The notes below the pieces were generated by a model, which was not told where the DNA came from, made no database searches, and saw nothing but the letters and a program-made list of their open reading frames with translations. This document shows positions 26,309-58,033 of a stretch of DNA of 64,000 bases, piece by piece; position 1 is the first letter of the stretch, and every line of letters starts with the position of its first letter. A program made the position numbers and the translations under genes. The DNA comes from Bacteroidota bacterium (GTDB taxonomy: Bacteria; Bacteroidota; Bacteroidia; Chitinophagales; JADIYW01): assembly GCA_963169645.1 (NCBI GenBank), contig CAUJCO010000013.1, positions 124,001 to 188,000 of the forward strand. Direction: 5' to 3'.

Positions 26309-27919
26309 TTAGCTCACATATTTTTCTAAAATCATATCAGCACCTTTTTCTGCAATCATAACAGTTGGTGCATGTATATTACTACTTGTAATAGTTGGCA
26401 TAATAGAAGAATCTATAACGCGCAAATTTGCAATGCCGTGAACTTTAAGTTCCGGATCCACAACTGCCATTTCATCTATTCCCATTTTACAAGAACCGGC
26501 AGTATGATAAACAGATTCCGCTCTATCTAAAATAAATTGTCGAATTTCCGCATCGGTTTGCACGTGTGCACCCGGCATTTCTTCTCGCACAAAAAGTTCT
26601 TTAAACGCAGGTTGTGCAATAATTTTACGCGCAATTTTCACTCCATTCACCAATGCATTCAATTCTGTTTCATCATCAAAATAATTAGCTTCAATACGAG
26701 GTGCATCAAATGGATTTGCTGATTTCAACAACACTCGACCTCTACTTTTTGGTCGCATGTGACATACGTGCAACACAAATCCGGAACGAATTGGATTAAT
26801 ACCATTTCCATGTGGCTGCATTCTCAGCGATGCAAATTGTAATTGCAAATCCGGCACTTCTACACTCGGATCAGATTTTACATATCCGCCGGCATCTGTT
26901 GGTGTAAATACAAATGGCTCATTATTCTTTTTATAAAATTTAGACATAAACTGAATCATATATGGCCAAGGAAAAGTAGTTAAGGATGCACCATGTTTTC
27001 CTTTGCAACGAATGATAATATCCGGATGATCTTGCAAGTTTTCGCCTACACCGGGCAAATCCAACTGTACATCAATTCCAAATTTTTGCAATTCTGCTTT
27101 TGGACCTACGCCTGACAATTTCAGAATTTGTGGTGAGCCTATAATGCCGGCACTCAAAATCACTTCTTTGGATGCAGTAAGTGTTTTCAATTTTTTGCCC
27201 TCTTTCATATCATAATATTCAATTCCATAAGCAGTTTTATCTTTAATTAAAACACGTTTGATATGGGCAAAATTAATAACCGTCAGATTTTTCCTGTTGC
27301 GTACCGGATTCAAAAAGGAAACAGAAGAATGGCAACGCTTTCCTTCCGGCGTTTGATTAATTTGAAAAAAATCAACCCCTTCATATTTTTCACCGTTTAT
27401 ATCTTTATTTTGTGGAATACCTGCTTGAACACATGCTTTTATAAATGCATGGCTCGGAGCAAAATGAAAAGTAGGATCAATCACATCCATTGTACCATCT
27501 TTACTATGATACGCATCTTCGCCGCGATGTTGTAATTCCGACTTTTTAAAATACGGCAACACCGATTTAAAATCCCAACCGGTATTACCCATTTCCGCCC
27601 ATCGGTCATAATCGGAAGAATGCCCACGTGTATAAATCATCGCATTTACGGCACTTGAACCACCTAACGTTTTTCCGCGTGGCCAATAAAATTTCCGCTT
27701 TCCTGTTTTGGCATTTCCTTCAGCAAAATATTTCCAATTATATGTTGGACTATTCATCAAATACAACATATTTACCGGATTGCAATTATGTATAAAATGC
27801 GAATCATCCGGCGGACCGGCTTCTAACAATACCACTTTATGATTGGGATTTACGGATAAACGATTGGCTAATACACAACCGGCAGAACCGCCTCCAATAA
27901 TAATGAAATCAAATTCCAT
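26309..27919 (-). CDS. GMC-family FAD-dependent oxidoreductase
   Basis: A 536-residue flavoprotein of the glucose-methanol-choline oxidoreductase family, close in layout to choline dehydrogenase and alcohol dehydrogenases of the alkJ type. Signs are the FAD motif IIGGGSAGCVLANRLS near the N-terminus, PRGKTLGGSSAVNAMIYTRGH, and SAGIIGSPQILKLSGVGP. The C-terminal active-site part has YHTAGSCKMG and DSSIMPTITSSNIHAPTVMIAEKGAD, with its conserved His and Asn pair. The substrate is an alcohol of unknown kind. The gene converges on obg and stands upstream of no partner. Confidence 0.92.
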   Translation of the reverse strand: MEFDFIIIGGGSAGCVLANRLSVNPNHKVVLLEAGPPDDSHFIHNCNPVNMLYLMNSPTYNWKYFAEGNAKTGKRKFYWPRGKTLGGSSAVNAMIYTRGHSSDYDRWAEMGNTGWDFKSVLPYFKKSELQHRGEDAYHSKDGTMDVIDPTFHFAPSHAFIKACVQAGIPQNKDINGEKYEGVDFFQINQTPEGKRCHSSVSFLNPVRNRKNLTVINFAHIKRVLIKDKTAYGIEYYDMKEGKKLKTLTASKEVILSAGIIGSPQILKLSGVGPKAELQKFGIDVQLDLPGVGENLQDHPDIIIRCKGKHGASLTTFPWPYMIQFMSKFYKKNNEPFVFTPTDAGGYVKSDPSVEVPDLQLQFASLRMQPHGNGINPIRSGFVLHVCHMRPKSRGRVLLKSANPFDAPRIEANYFDDETELNALVNGVKIARKIIAQPAFKELFVREEMPGAHVQTDAEIRQFILDRAESVYHTAGSCKMGIDEMAVVDPELKVHGIANLRVIDSSIMPTITSSNIHAPTVMIAEKGADMILEKYVS

Positions 27920-28211
27920 ATAAAGATTTTTATTGAATTAAAATAAAATCGAATTTAGAAAACTACTGCTGATTATGCTAACTATTTATTAAAAAAATAC
28001 TTGAACATAATTTTAGATTGTTTCAATTAAAAATTGATAAAAACAGCTACATTTTAGACTTGCATCAAATTTTCTGATAAATACATTGAATATCTAACAA
28101 TTCCATAAAAAACAATCTTTCAGTCTTGCTATATTAATCCTTAATTTTACGTGTAACATTGAGTATCGCATAGCGATTAGCACATTTTTATTACTTAATT
28201 TTTAAAATAAA

Positions 28212-29999
28212 ATGGAAACTTTAGATCAAATCAAGTCATTAAAAGGTGGTGAATTCATCATTAAAGAATCTACTACTGAGCAAGTTTTTACACCGGAAGA
28301 TTATACCGAAGAACAACAAATGGTGCGTTCTATGGCATCTGATTTCGTAGAAAAAGAGGTAATGCCTCGTTGGAAAGAGTACGAGAAACAAGAGCCGGGA
28401 TTATCTACCGATTTATTGAAAAAAGCCGGAGAATTAGGTTTGTTATCAACTGCAATACCTGAAACGTATGGCGGAATGAATCAAGATGTAATTACAGGTT
28501 GTATTATTGCTGAAGAATTTGGTCGTACAGGCTCATTCGCGACTACTGCAATTTGCCATATTGGTATCGGTACATTACCTATTTTATACTTCGGTAACGA
28601 AGAACAAAAACAAAAATTCTTACCCAACTTAGCCAGTGGCGAATGGCCGGCTTCTTACTGCTTAACTGAGCCAAGTTCCGGTTCGGATGCATTAGGTGCT
28701 AAAACAATTGCTACTCTTTCTGAAGATGGAAAAGAGTGGATATTGAATGGACAAAAAATGTGGATTACTAACGCTGGTTTCGCTCATTCATTTACTGTAT
28801 TTGCTAAAATTGATGGAAAAGAATTTACAGCTTTCTTAGTAGAGAAAGGTACACCGGGTTTAAACTTAGGTGCAGAAGAAGACAAAATGGGTATCAAAGG
28901 TTCTTCTACTCGCCAAGTATTTTTTGAAAACTGCAGAATTCCGGTTGAAAACATGTTAGGTGAGCGTGGAAAAGGACATCTTATTGCATTTAACATCTTA
29001 AATATTGGAAGATACAAATTAGGTGCTACTGCTTTAGGTGGTGCACGCGAAGCTTTCAACGCTGCAGTTCGTTATGCCAATGAGCGTACACAATTTGGAA
29101 AAGCAATTAGCACATTTGGTGCTATCCAACATAAGATTGCCGAAATGGCAATCCAATTGTTTGCATTAGAAGTAGCTACTTACAGATGTGCAAACGACAT
29201 CGGTAAATTAGAGCATGAAAACTTAGCTGCCGGAAAAGAATTTTCTAAAGCATTATTAGGTGCTGCTGAAGAATATGCAATTGAATGCTCTATCGTGAAA
29301 GTATTAGGGTCAGAAGTTTTAGATTTCATCGTAGATGAAAATGTACAAATTCATGGTGGCATGGGCTTCTCTGAAGAAGGTACTGCTGCAAGAGCATATA
29401 GAGATTCTCGTATTGCTCGTATCTATGAAGGTACAAACGAAATCAACCGTTTATTATCTATTGATATGTTGTTAAAACGTGCGATGAGTGGTAAAATAGA
29501 TTTGATGACACCTGGCATGGCAATCCAAAAAGAATTGATGAGTGTTCCTGATTTCAACAATGAAGACGAAGGTGCATTTGCTGCTGAAGTGAAAGCAATT
29601 AAAAATGCGAAAAAAGCATTCTTATTAGTTGCCGGTGGTGCTGTTCAAAAATTAATGGCTAAAATGAAAGACGAGCAAGAAATTATTATGAATGCAGCTG
29701 ACATGTTGATTCAAATTTATGCCGCAGAGTCTTTATTATTGCGTGTACAAAAAATCACGGAAGCAGGCGAAAAAACGGATGCAGTCTACACAGACATTTT
29801 AAAAGTATTTATCAATGATGCGATGAATAAAATAAATGTATATGGTAAAGATGCCTTACAATCTTTTGCAGAAGGAGATGAATTACGTATTATGATGATG
29901 GGATTAAAACGTTTCACAAAATACGAACCGGTAAATGTAAAAGAAGCAAGAAGAAGAATTGCTACCAGAATATTAGAAGCCGGACAATACAATCTTTAA
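28212..29999 (+). CDS. Acyl-CoA dehydrogenase (long form with C-terminal extension)
   Basis: FAD enzyme for the first oxidation of fatty acyl-CoA. The 595-residue length includes a C-terminal extension of about 170 residues like the very-long-chain dehydrogenases. Recognisable are CLTEPSSGSDALGAKT, WITNAGFAHSFTVFAK, RTQFGKAISTFGAIQHKIAEM, and YEGTNEINRLL, which keeps the catalytic Glu. Codon use and the strong terminator suggest high expression. It is separate from the thiolase/FadB operon at 56-61 kb but probably serves the same beta-oxidation pathway. The 292 bp before it hold no clear feature. Confidence 0.94.
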   Translation: METLDQIKSLKGGEFIIKESTTEQVFTPEDYTEEQQMVRSMASDFVEKEVMPRWKEYEKQEPGLSTDLLKKAGELGLLSTAIPETYGGMNQDVITGCIIAEEFGRTGSFATTAICHIGIGTLPILYFGNEEQKQKFLPNLASGEWPASYCLTEPSSGSDALGAKTIATLSEDGKEWILNGQKMWITNAGFAHSFTVFAKIDGKEFTAFLVEKGTPGLNLGAEEDKMGIKGSSTRQVFFENCRIPVENMLGERGKGHLIAFNILNIGRYKLGATALGGAREAFNAAVRYANERTQFGKAISTFGAIQHKIAEMAIQLFALEVATYRCANDIGKLEHENLAAGKEFSKALLGAAEEYAIECSIVKVLGSEVLDFIVDENVQIHGGMGFSEEGTAARAYRDSRIARIYEGTNEINRLLSIDMLLKRAMSGKIDLMTPGMAIQKELMSVPDFNNEDEGAFAAEVKAIKNAKKAFLLVAGGAVQKLMAKMKDEQEIIMNAADMLIQIYAAESLLLRVQKITEAGEKTDAVYTDILKVFINDAMNKINVYGKDALQSFAEGDELRIMMMGLKRFTKYEPVNVKEARRRIATRILEAGQYNL

Positions 30000-54084: not shown

Positions 54085-54855
54085 ATGATACGCTCCATTA
54101 TTATTGAAGATGAACCAATTTTTCAAGAAATTCTAAAAAAGGCAATTCAACAAACGAAATTTGATATTCAGATTGAAGCTATATGTAATTCGAAAAGAGA
54201 CGCCAAGAAAGTAATTCCTAAAATTGCACCTGATTTAGTTTTTTTGGATGTGGAATTAGCTGATGGTAAAGGCATAGACTTACTAAACGAATTAGAACAA
54301 GTGAATTTTGAAATTATCTTCACTACTTCGCACGATAAATATGCCATTAATGCTATTAAAAACAATGCAGCAGATTACTTACTTAAACCCATAAATGAAA
54401 AAGACCTAAAAGTATCTTTGCAGAAAGTAATTAAACGCTTGGAAGACAAAGAAACCATAAACAAAGCAACCTTACTACAAAACTATTTAGATAAATTAAA
54501 AGCGGAACAACAACAAGATGCAAAATTGATGGTGCCCACTAAAGATGGTATGATTTTTTTGAAAGTAAGAGACCTTGTATATTTGCAATCAGAAAGCAAC
54601 TACACTCAATTTTTTTTAGTAAATAATCGCAAAGTATTAGTAGCTAAAACACTAAAATATTTTGAAGAGAAATTATTGCCGTATAATTTTATGCGTGTTC
54701 ATCAATCCAACTTGATAAATTTGGCACACATGAAAGAAATTGACCACGGCGATAATTTGGCAATCATGACAGATGGTAGCAAAGTGGAAATTTCTAAACG
54801 AAAGAAAAAAGAATTTTTAGATTCTTTAGATAACAACAAAGCCACTATTTCATAG
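54085..54855 (+). CDS. LytTR-family response regulator
   Basis: A 256-residue regulator, divergent from the TPR-kinase 93 bases away. The receiver (1 to about 125) has the acidic pair (IEDEP), phospho-Asp in VFLDVELADGKG, and Lys in LLKPINE. The LytTR DNA-binding domain (about 150-250) has LVYLQSESNYTQFFL, FMRVHQSNLINL and VEISKRKKKEFLDSL. Start ATG at 54085 (MIRSIII) is preferred over an upstream TTG. It likely receives phosphate from the neighbouring kinase. Confidence 0.92.
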   Translation: MIRSIIIEDEPIFQEILKKAIQQTKFDIQIEAICNSKRDAKKVIPKIAPDLVFLDVELADGKGIDLLNELEQVNFEIIFTTSHDKYAINAIKNNAADYLLKPINEKDLKVSLQKVIKRLEDKETINKATLLQNYLDKLKAEQQQDAKLMVPTKDGMIFLKVRDLVYLQSESNYTQFFLVNNRKVLVAKTLKYFEEKLLPYNFMRVHQSNLINLAHMKEIDHGDNLAIMTDGSKVEISKRKKKEFLDSLDNNKATIS

Positions 54856-54869
54856 TTAAATGTGCTATT

Positions 54870-55041
54870 GTTTCGTGAAGTCACGAACCATGACTGAAGA
54901 TTGCACGGTTTGTGTCGTCACGAACCGAAATATTTTGTTTCGTGCGAACACGAACCATGGCTGAATCCTTTTCGTTTGCATCGGTTTGTGTCGTCACAAA
55001 CCGAAATATATTGTTTCGTGCGGACACGAACCATGGCTGAA
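54870..55041. repeat. REP-like bipartite hairpin repeats, left cluster
   Basis: Two hairpin motifs alternate. Type A: CGGTTTGTG, TCGT loop, then CACAAACCG or a variant (54906-54927, 54982-55003). Type B: TTTCGTG, a four-base loop, CACGAA, then CCATGGCTGAA (54870-54898 as a variant, 54938-54966, 55013-55041). A precedes B by about 10 bases. The cluster ends 16 bases before the stop codon of the lipoprotein gene. This region is not coding in a convincing way. Confidence 0.85.
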
Positions 55042-55057
55042 GAAACATGGCTTTGTA

Positions 55058-55921
55058 TTAATATTCAAATCTACATACACTTTTATTTGCTTCCAAAGTA
55101 GAATCTGTTAAGGTAATTGGGTCTCTATAAATTAAATCAGAATAACAAAAAACAACTCTATCCAGATGATCAAATATGTAATGATATTGTGTATAAGTTC
55201 CAGTAAGTTCTTCAACATAACTATTCCAATACCAGCATTTGTCTATCAACTTCATCTTTAATCCCGGATATGGATAGTTATACAATTCATAATAAGGATA
55301 AATTCCAGATAAAATCGGGCATTGTGTATTGTTATCTTTTGATGTATAAGTACATTCATACTTTTTTTCTACCGGTGTAAAGTCAGATAAGTATAAACTC
55401 ATTTTATCAAAATTTGACGAATCAGGTTCATACTCAGAATAAAAATTTAAACCACTACCAGAACCAGCACTCGTTGAGGAATAAGAAGAGAAACGTTGAT
55501 AATTATTCAGTTGATACTCGTTTATTAAGTCATTCGTGTATGTATCATTGTAAATATTATAGAATCGGTACTCTTTATCAAACGTATTATTTTGAAACTT
55601 CATTACCCAAATATTTAAAGTAGAGTCAATAGGTGTTTCTTTATATATGATTTGCTGATTTGCATATCTTGAATAATTGAATCGAATGATATTGCTAGCA
55701 CCATTAGCTTCTAATCTTATAATACTATCAAAATAAGGTTTAGCCTCATCTTTGTATAAAAAAATAACTAGTGAATCTTGCGTTGAGCTGTCATTATCCA
55801 AATCGTAATAAGTAATCTTTTTAGGAAGTTTATTCGTATCTTCTAATTTAATCTTTTTCTCTTTTTGACATGCAAACAAGAGAATTGTTGAAAAAAATGT
55901 AATTGCAATAATTGATTTCAT
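55058..55921 (-). CDS. Lipoprotein of unknown function (flanked by repeat clusters)
   Basis: 287 residues starting at ATG 55919-55921 with a lipobox LLFACQKE (Cys about 18). The mature protein is rich in Tyr, Asp, Ser and Asn, and probably folds into beta strands with four further cysteines (YECTYTS, QCPILSG, IDKCWYW, VFCYSD). I do not recognise a family. It is bracketed by REP-like hairpin clusters, has no functional neighbour on the same strand and no visible promoter, so it may be an acquired or mobile single gene. Alternative start: an upstream in-frame start at 55954. Confidence 0.65.
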   Translation of the reverse strand: MKSIIAITFFSTILLFACQKEKKIKLEDTNKLPKKITYYDLDNDSSTQDSLVIFLYKDEAKPYFDSIIRLEANGASNIIRFNYSRYANQQIIYKETPIDSTLNIWVMKFQNNTFDKEYRFYNIYNDTYTNDLINEYQLNNYQRFSSYSSTSAGSGSGLNFYSEYEPDSSNFDKMSLYLSDFTPVEKKYECTYTSKDNNTQCPILSGIYPYYELYNYPYPGLKMKLIDKCWYWNSYVEELTGTYTQYHYIFDHLDRVVFCYSDLIYRDPITLTDSTLEANKSVCRFEY

Positions 55922-56043
55922 ATTCAAATATATATAAAAAAATAGAAAATACAATAAGTTAACATTTTGTGTATTGCTAACTGCGTAGTGTCCTTTTCAA
56001 GAGATGCTGCTGGAAAGACAAAAAACAATCTTTTCGTTTGCAT

Positions 56044-56427
56044 CGGTTTGTGTCGTCACAAGCCGGAATGTATTGTTTCGTGAAGACACGAACCATGGCT
56101 TAGTTGCTTCGTGAAGACACGAAACATGGCTGAAAGTTTCGTGCGGACGTTTGCATCGGTTTGTGTCGTCACAAACCGAAATGTATTGTTTCGTGAGGAC
56201 ACGAACCACGGCTGAAAAATTTCGACCATTTGCATCGGTTTGTGTCTTCACGAACCGAAATTTATTGTTTCGTGCGGACACGAAACATGGCTTTGGAAAG
56301 AAAATGAAAAAAAACGCCAACATTCCGTTGGCGTTTCTATTGTTTGTAAATAATAAAGTGCTAAAATTTCGAGATATCAAAACAAACTTTTCCTAATTGG
56401 TTCGTGAGGACACGAACCATGGCTGAA
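56044..56427. repeat. REP-like bipartite hairpin repeats, right cluster
   Basis: Type A copies at 56044-56065, 56157-56178 and 56236-56257. Type B copies at 56075-56100, 56106-56134, 56188-56216, 56268-56293 and 56399-56427, plus a partial B at 56136-56148. The same A-then-B order and spacing (about 10 bases) as the left cluster is kept. TTTGCAT precedes each A unit. The thiolase terminator lies between the last two B units. Confidence 0.85.
56311..56336 (-). terminator. Terminator of the beta-oxidation operon
   Basis: A 10-bp stem AAACGCCAAC / GTTGGCGTTT (56312-56321 and 56327-56336) with a five-base loop. On the minus strand a run of eight T follows it. It lies about 127 bases past the thiolase stop; the last B-type repeat is between them. 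Confidence 0.75.
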
Positions 56428-57679: not shown

Positions 57680-58033
57680 TTAAGACCTTTTGTTTTTTAT
57701 TAATTTATAAATCATTTTTTGAACTTCTTGTAAATCAGTAATGATTGTATTTACTAAATCAGTTGGTAAGTATGAAATATCGGAACACAATAACAATTGT
57801 GTTTCTAATTCAAAACATGAACCGTAAGCAATTTCTAGAAAGTATGAAAATTCTTTATTAGAACTTCTACTCGCACCTTCTGCAATATTGGAAGGTATGG
57901 AAACAGCACATCTTCTTAATTGGCCCGTGAGACCATATTTTTCATCAGATGGAAGCTGCGTAGAAATATCATATATTGTTTTAACTATCATTCTAGATTT
58001 TTGCCATACAATCAGTTCTTTATAATTATTCAT
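57680..58033 (-). CDS. Four-helix-bundle protein of the S23/intervening-sequence family
   Basis: A 117-residue cytoplasmic protein. The pattern LIVWQKSRMIVKTIYDIS, LPSDEKYGLTGQLRRCAVSIPSNIAEGASR, and EFSYFLEIAYGSCFELETQLLL matches the family first seen encoded in insertions of 23S rRNA genes, later found free. The family forms pentameric four-helix bundles with unknown function. Here it lies between the FadB-like and thiolase genes, with 38-39 base gaps, and so may be transcribed with beta-oxidation genes. It is not inside rRNA. Confidence 0.9.
   Translation of the reverse strand: MNNYKELIVWQKSRMIVKTIYDISTQLPSDEKYGLTGQLRRCAVSIPSNIAEGASRSSNKEFSYFLEIAYGSCFELETQLLLCSDISYLPTDLVNTIITDLQEVQKMIYKLIKNKRS

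Follow-up and report, generated by a model that had tools for sequence, protein, structure and literature searches.

Paired REP hairpins around an orphan lipoprotein gene of a Chitinophagales genome and a RAYT as their likely mover

The hairpins that lie on both sides of an orphan lipoprotein gene in a 2.7-Mb Chitinophagales (Bacteroidota) genome are very probably non-autonomous REPs, mostly arranged as REPINs, and the RAYT encoded at C13:202154-202714 is their likely mover. REPIN/RAYT systems are long-lived domesticated transposons that have been studied mostly in Proteobacteria, and the hairpins of the Bacteroidota branch have been described as atypical and identified manually. With a searchable consensus and a covariance model, together with the co-variation of hairpin loop and enzyme described here, this branch becomes countable in genomes, and it becomes possible to test clearly by binding which part of the hairpin is read by the enzyme.

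Hairpins at the lipoprotein locus

Five A and eight B hairpins had been predicted in the window, which is the whole 64,000-nucleotide stretch of DNA analysed, and our sequence read located every one of them, at 54,869-56,419 within the stretch 54,867-56,427. The A hairpins are of the type GGTTTGTG-N4-CACAAACC, with a single base changed in some, and the B hairpins are of the type TTTCGTG-N4-CACGAA, most of them followed by a tail of CCATGGCTGAA or similar sequence; the stems of both are 9-10 bp long and the loops 4 nt. The order had been described as A followed after about 10 bases by B in nearly all cases, which is correct for five of the eight B hairpins of this locus, while the other three B hairpins are solitary. 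REP orientation was read from the loop, whose forward sequence is usually TCNN, and from the 5' foot, which is GCC, GCA or GCAT; the canonical GT[AG]G tetranucleotide was not found 5' of the hairpins. In the A-B unit the A hairpin is forward and the B hairpin is reverse with about 10 nt between them, and therefore the feet face outward. This layout of two inverted REPs is a REPIN (BIME), and the REP/BIME reading of the original prediction is borne out by the inverted pair and its genome-wide dispersal. Among the loci read, 13 fully scored forward/reverse heterodimers had exactly 30 nt from start to start and one more had 31. The A-B unit folded as DNA with -16.6 kcal/mol (z -4.2), and 0 of 200 shuffles folded as well. 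The features of the locus are as follows.

54867..54898, minus strand, single B-type REP
54902..54965, plus strand, REPIN 1: A REP 54906-54927, then B REP 54936-54957
54975..55041, plus strand, REPIN 2: A REP 54981-55004, then B REP 55012-55033
55058..55921, minus strand, lipoprotein gene (287 aa) between the two clusters, outside the repeat element
56037..56103, plus strand, REPIN 3: A REP 56043-56065, then B REP 56074-56095
56103..56134, minus strand, single B-type REP
56136..56148, no strand assigned, half B hairpin, broken off in the loop
56150..56216, plus strand, REPIN 4: A REP 56156-56179, then B REP 56187-56208
56229..56295, plus strand, REPIN 5: A REP 56235-56258, then B REP 56266-56287
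56310..56342, no strand assigned, terminator-type hairpin downstream of the thiolase gene, not of the repeat family
56396..56427, minus strand, single B-type REP, with the terminator-like hairpin on one side and the thiolase gene on the other

The half B hairpin at 56,136-56,148 ends inside its loop and leads into the A-B unit that follows, and it is possibly the trace of an insertion or a recombination. A "127-aa ORF" at 55,997-56,380 and similar ORFs in other clusters are largely repeat sequence and were not accepted as genes.

Dispersal of the repeats and the RAYT gene

The A-B unit is not confined to this locus, and A and B hairpins were found at about twelve sites of the genome. The A-type pattern gave 21 genome matches, 20 of which were true short-loop hairpins, and the single long-loop match looks like a chance hit; 32 exact B-type hairpins were counted genome-wide, and the reversed control patterns of A and B gave 0 matches genome-wide. 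The covariance model recorded at least 64 REP copies, from genome searches and stretches, which is only a lower bound because just 77 candidates were scored. The clusters are nearly all intergenic, with the gaps of convergent gene pairs and the stretches just past gene ends as the commonest settings. Tandem arrays with a unit of 176-177 bp were also seen on contig C14 of this genome, G000 (L015:1172-3057), in about nine copies, most of which contain one REP hairpin.

A gene on contig C4 contains two REPs in frame (L047:2243-2330); it was named from its own sequence as a biotin-dependent acyl-CoA carboxylase gene. The two REPs add about 20 residues, and the G003 orthologue, 93% identical by search, lacks them. 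The junctions against this orthologue show small indels, and because they are not clean the exact REP ends could not be read; an empty site with clean, exact ends was not found. Insertions of REPs in frame within genes are already on record. At the corresponding loop of the carboxylase protein, G006 has a different palindromic repeat, which encodes CHPELVSG.

It had also been stated that no transposase is in the window, and the search of the genome with Pfam Y1_Tnp agrees, since the two genes that it matched both lie outside. One of them, with a Y1_Tnp score above the cut-off, is the 186-aa RAYT gene at C13:202154-202714, 14.2 kb beyond the right end of the window, and it has A- and B-type hairpins on both sides, forward upstream and mostly reverse downstream, so that a RAYT-like gene with the same hairpin in its flanks, which had been suggested as a check, does exist. 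The other Y1 gene (C7:227126-227674) was rejected as the cognate enzyme, as no A or B hairpins were found in those of its flanks that were checked. The RAYT scored 80.8 bits against NCBIfam NF047646 (REP-associated tyrosine transposase), a small margin over the cut-off of 80, and a profile of this RAYT and ten relatives matched E. coli TnpArep (PDB 4er8) with an E-value of 1.6e-4. Its motifs are PNHVH, FWQ and YIHNNP. The orthologue in G005, a Chitinophagales MAG representing a sister species, is 78% identical, follows the same radC-like neighbour gene and carries the same hairpins.

A flanked RAYT together with a dispersed unit of inverted REPs supports the predicted action in trans, as far as can be judged from sequence. 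If it acts like its E. coli counterpart, the HUH/Y1 protein would bind one orientation of the hairpin in single-stranded form, cleave next to it and rejoin it at another place, and the repeats would grow in tandem at preferred intergenic spots. We infer that the RAYT on contig C13 would perform the cutting and joining, and would do so still today.

The RAYT 3' end itself (28-145 nt) is duplicated in the flank at 8 of 86 loci (L008:3894-4016, L046:7746-7890, L007:3762-3818, L117, L128, L131, L138 and L147). In G000 and G005 these copies are bracketed by REPs, and their left break points differ.

Comparison across Bacteroidota and with known systems

Hairpins of this kind accompany RAYT genes widely in Bacteroidota. 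A hairpin with a GTG-loop-CAC tip occurs within 350 bp at 54 of 80 RAYT loci, the GTG tip is present in 161 of 233 RAYT-flanking hairpins as compared to 2 of 33 in background stretches, and GCC is the commonest foot among the hairpins flanking Bacteroidota RAYT genes. In a set of 25 RAYT-flanking hairpins from nine genomes, which were hand-picked and oriented by foot and loop, seven of ten stem pairs changed on both sides and 97% of the stem cells pair, and the top three pairs (GTG/CAC) are invariant. The loop type, TC or TT, requires one change on the RAYT tree against a shuffled mean of 13.2, with a support of 78 at the loop-type split, loop labels taken from the 80-locus flank table and a clustering inflated by near relatives. 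Of 63 genomes with a RAYT homologue, 40 had hairpins matching the model, as compared to 1 of the 36 that have no homologue (Fisher p 4e-10, shared ancestry uncorrected), and the contrast persisted when the covariance model's own genomes were left out (p 4e-7, shared ancestry likewise uncorrected). No RAYT match was obtained in G004, a draft at 95% completeness, though REPs are present.

A RAYT flanked by REPs of a dispersed family is what makes a REPtron, and this arrangement is found here and is orthologous in G005. Quentin et al. (2018, PMC6006769) described the TnpAREP REPtrons of subclass 2.6 as a Bacteroidetes group with hairpins that lack GT[AG]G. The RAYT has the motifs of this subclass (NH[LIV]H, WQ and YIH[QN]NP) and, with 186 aa, comes close to its typical length of near 179 aa; the motifs also fit subclass 2.4, of which the REPs carry GT[AG]G. 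We file the system as a putative REPtron of subclass 2.6 / Bertels group 5 by motifs, host and hairpins without GT[AG]G. It shares with the subclass 2.6 REPtrons the NHVH, WQ and YIHNNP motifs, a Bacteroidota host, and flanking hairpins without GT[AG]G that have copies elsewhere in the genome. The 10-bp stem, the GTG-TCNN-CAC tip, the GCC-type foot and the inverted dimers are described from the present system, whereas the passages of PMC6006769 consulted give no consensus for such REPs. The consensus of GCC foot and GTG-TCNN-CAC for the Bacteroidota branch may be new, and it is the only part that we grade in this way.

As compared to the REPINs/BIMEs of E. coli and Pseudomonas with their group 2 and 3 RAYTs (PMC8049555, PMC8266576), the present system likewise has inverted REP pairs, dispersed and mostly intergenic copies, and a single-copy REP-flanked RAYT whose position is stable between sister species. 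However, the foot here is GCC/GCAT instead of GTAG, the RAYT belongs to another subclass, and the copies counted here, 64 as a lower bound, are fewer than the 96 or more reported for E. coli strains. Di Nocera et al. (2013, PMC3733652) reported that CGTC-tagged REPs, which have no dedicated transposase, are also found in Bacteroidetes. They too are short palindromic repeats, often in dimers, but the tag here is not CGTC and the repeats here flank a RAYT.

We also propose, tentatively and with somewhat less than even confidence, that Bacteroidota RAYTs might use a recognition code unlike GTAG, made of a CC-type foot, a GTG-CAC tip that does not vary and a loop (TCNN or TTNT) that changes with the clade of the transposase, while compensatory changes let the stem drift. 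Loop and tip, rather than the tetranucleotide of the foot, would then be the main mark by which each REP family is tied to its enzyme.

Alternative explanations and the history of the locus

The hairpins could instead be immobile transcription terminators or stabilisers of mRNA 3' ends that are kept by the host. Most clusters do occupy the space between converging genes or directly follow the end of a gene, and such secondary roles have been discussed for REPs of other bacteria. We consider this very unlikely, because a separate terminator-like hairpin, conserved in G003, G004 and G005 (here 56310..56342), already stands between the lipoprotein and thiolase genes, and the repeats are clustered in oriented pairs of fixed spacing, even in frame inside a gene. 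They also track the presence of a RAYT, and an Rfam search of the hairpins gave no family match. Palindromes flanking an orphan gene might also be recombination sites that belong to a different system, for instance integron attC sites or the MITE ends of a DDE transposase, with a superficial likeness to REPs. This is extremely improbable, as the same hairpins flank the RAYT here, covarying versions flank RAYTs in many other Bacteroidota, and the copies show no link to gene cassettes.

The two clusters could finally be the ends of a composite element (REP-gene-REP) that carried the lipoprotein gene in, through the RAYT or through recombination between the repeats, the latter having been raised in the original prediction. 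The lipoprotein itself has no family match, and among 298 genomes of the order a homologue occurs only in G005, in the corresponding place adjoining the thiolase gene, which limits the gene to two sister species. In G005 the gene is present and no A-B units surround it, but on either side stands a single hairpin whose stem is of a related type (GGTTGGYG-N4-CACCAACC). Thus REP-like hairpins flank the gene in both species, the REP-bracketed RAYT 3'-end fragments of both species and the rearrangement junction at the left cluster (see below) agree with a composite element, and yet we regard such an element as very unlikely. In G005 the gene lies at this very site with no A-B units around it, and the hairpins next to it have a different type of stem. 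The majority of the REP clusters in the present genome border ordinary genes, and only on one side, and a donor copy of the lipoprotein gene was not found. The import of the gene by recombination between the present repeats is accordingly not supported. Since the position is shared with G005, where A-B units are missing, the lipoprotein gene would most simply be older than the present A-B units; an older REP-associated capture may have taken place, given the related hairpin on each side in G005. The reading of the hairpins as REPs, mostly in REPINs, with the RAYT on contig C13 as the likely mover, is the one that we prefer.

In other members of the genus, the thiolase gene adjoins an acyl-CoA dehydrogenase gene, or a different ORF lies in between. 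The pair of GMC oxidoreductase and acyl-CoA dehydrogenase genes is beside the lipoprotein gene in G005, and here it is found 25 kb away and inverted, at 26309-29999. Because the pair is inverted at 26.3-30.0 kb, a rearrangement junction is placed at the left REP cluster (54855-55058). We abandoned the view that the moved block is delimited by REPs at both ends, as there is no REP at its present site (26.3-30.0 kb). Upstream of the thiolase gene, the window also encodes a protein of the 23S rRNA intervening-sequence family (PF05635) at 57680-58033, and ORFs similar to it were seen at the corresponding place in G003, G004 and G005.
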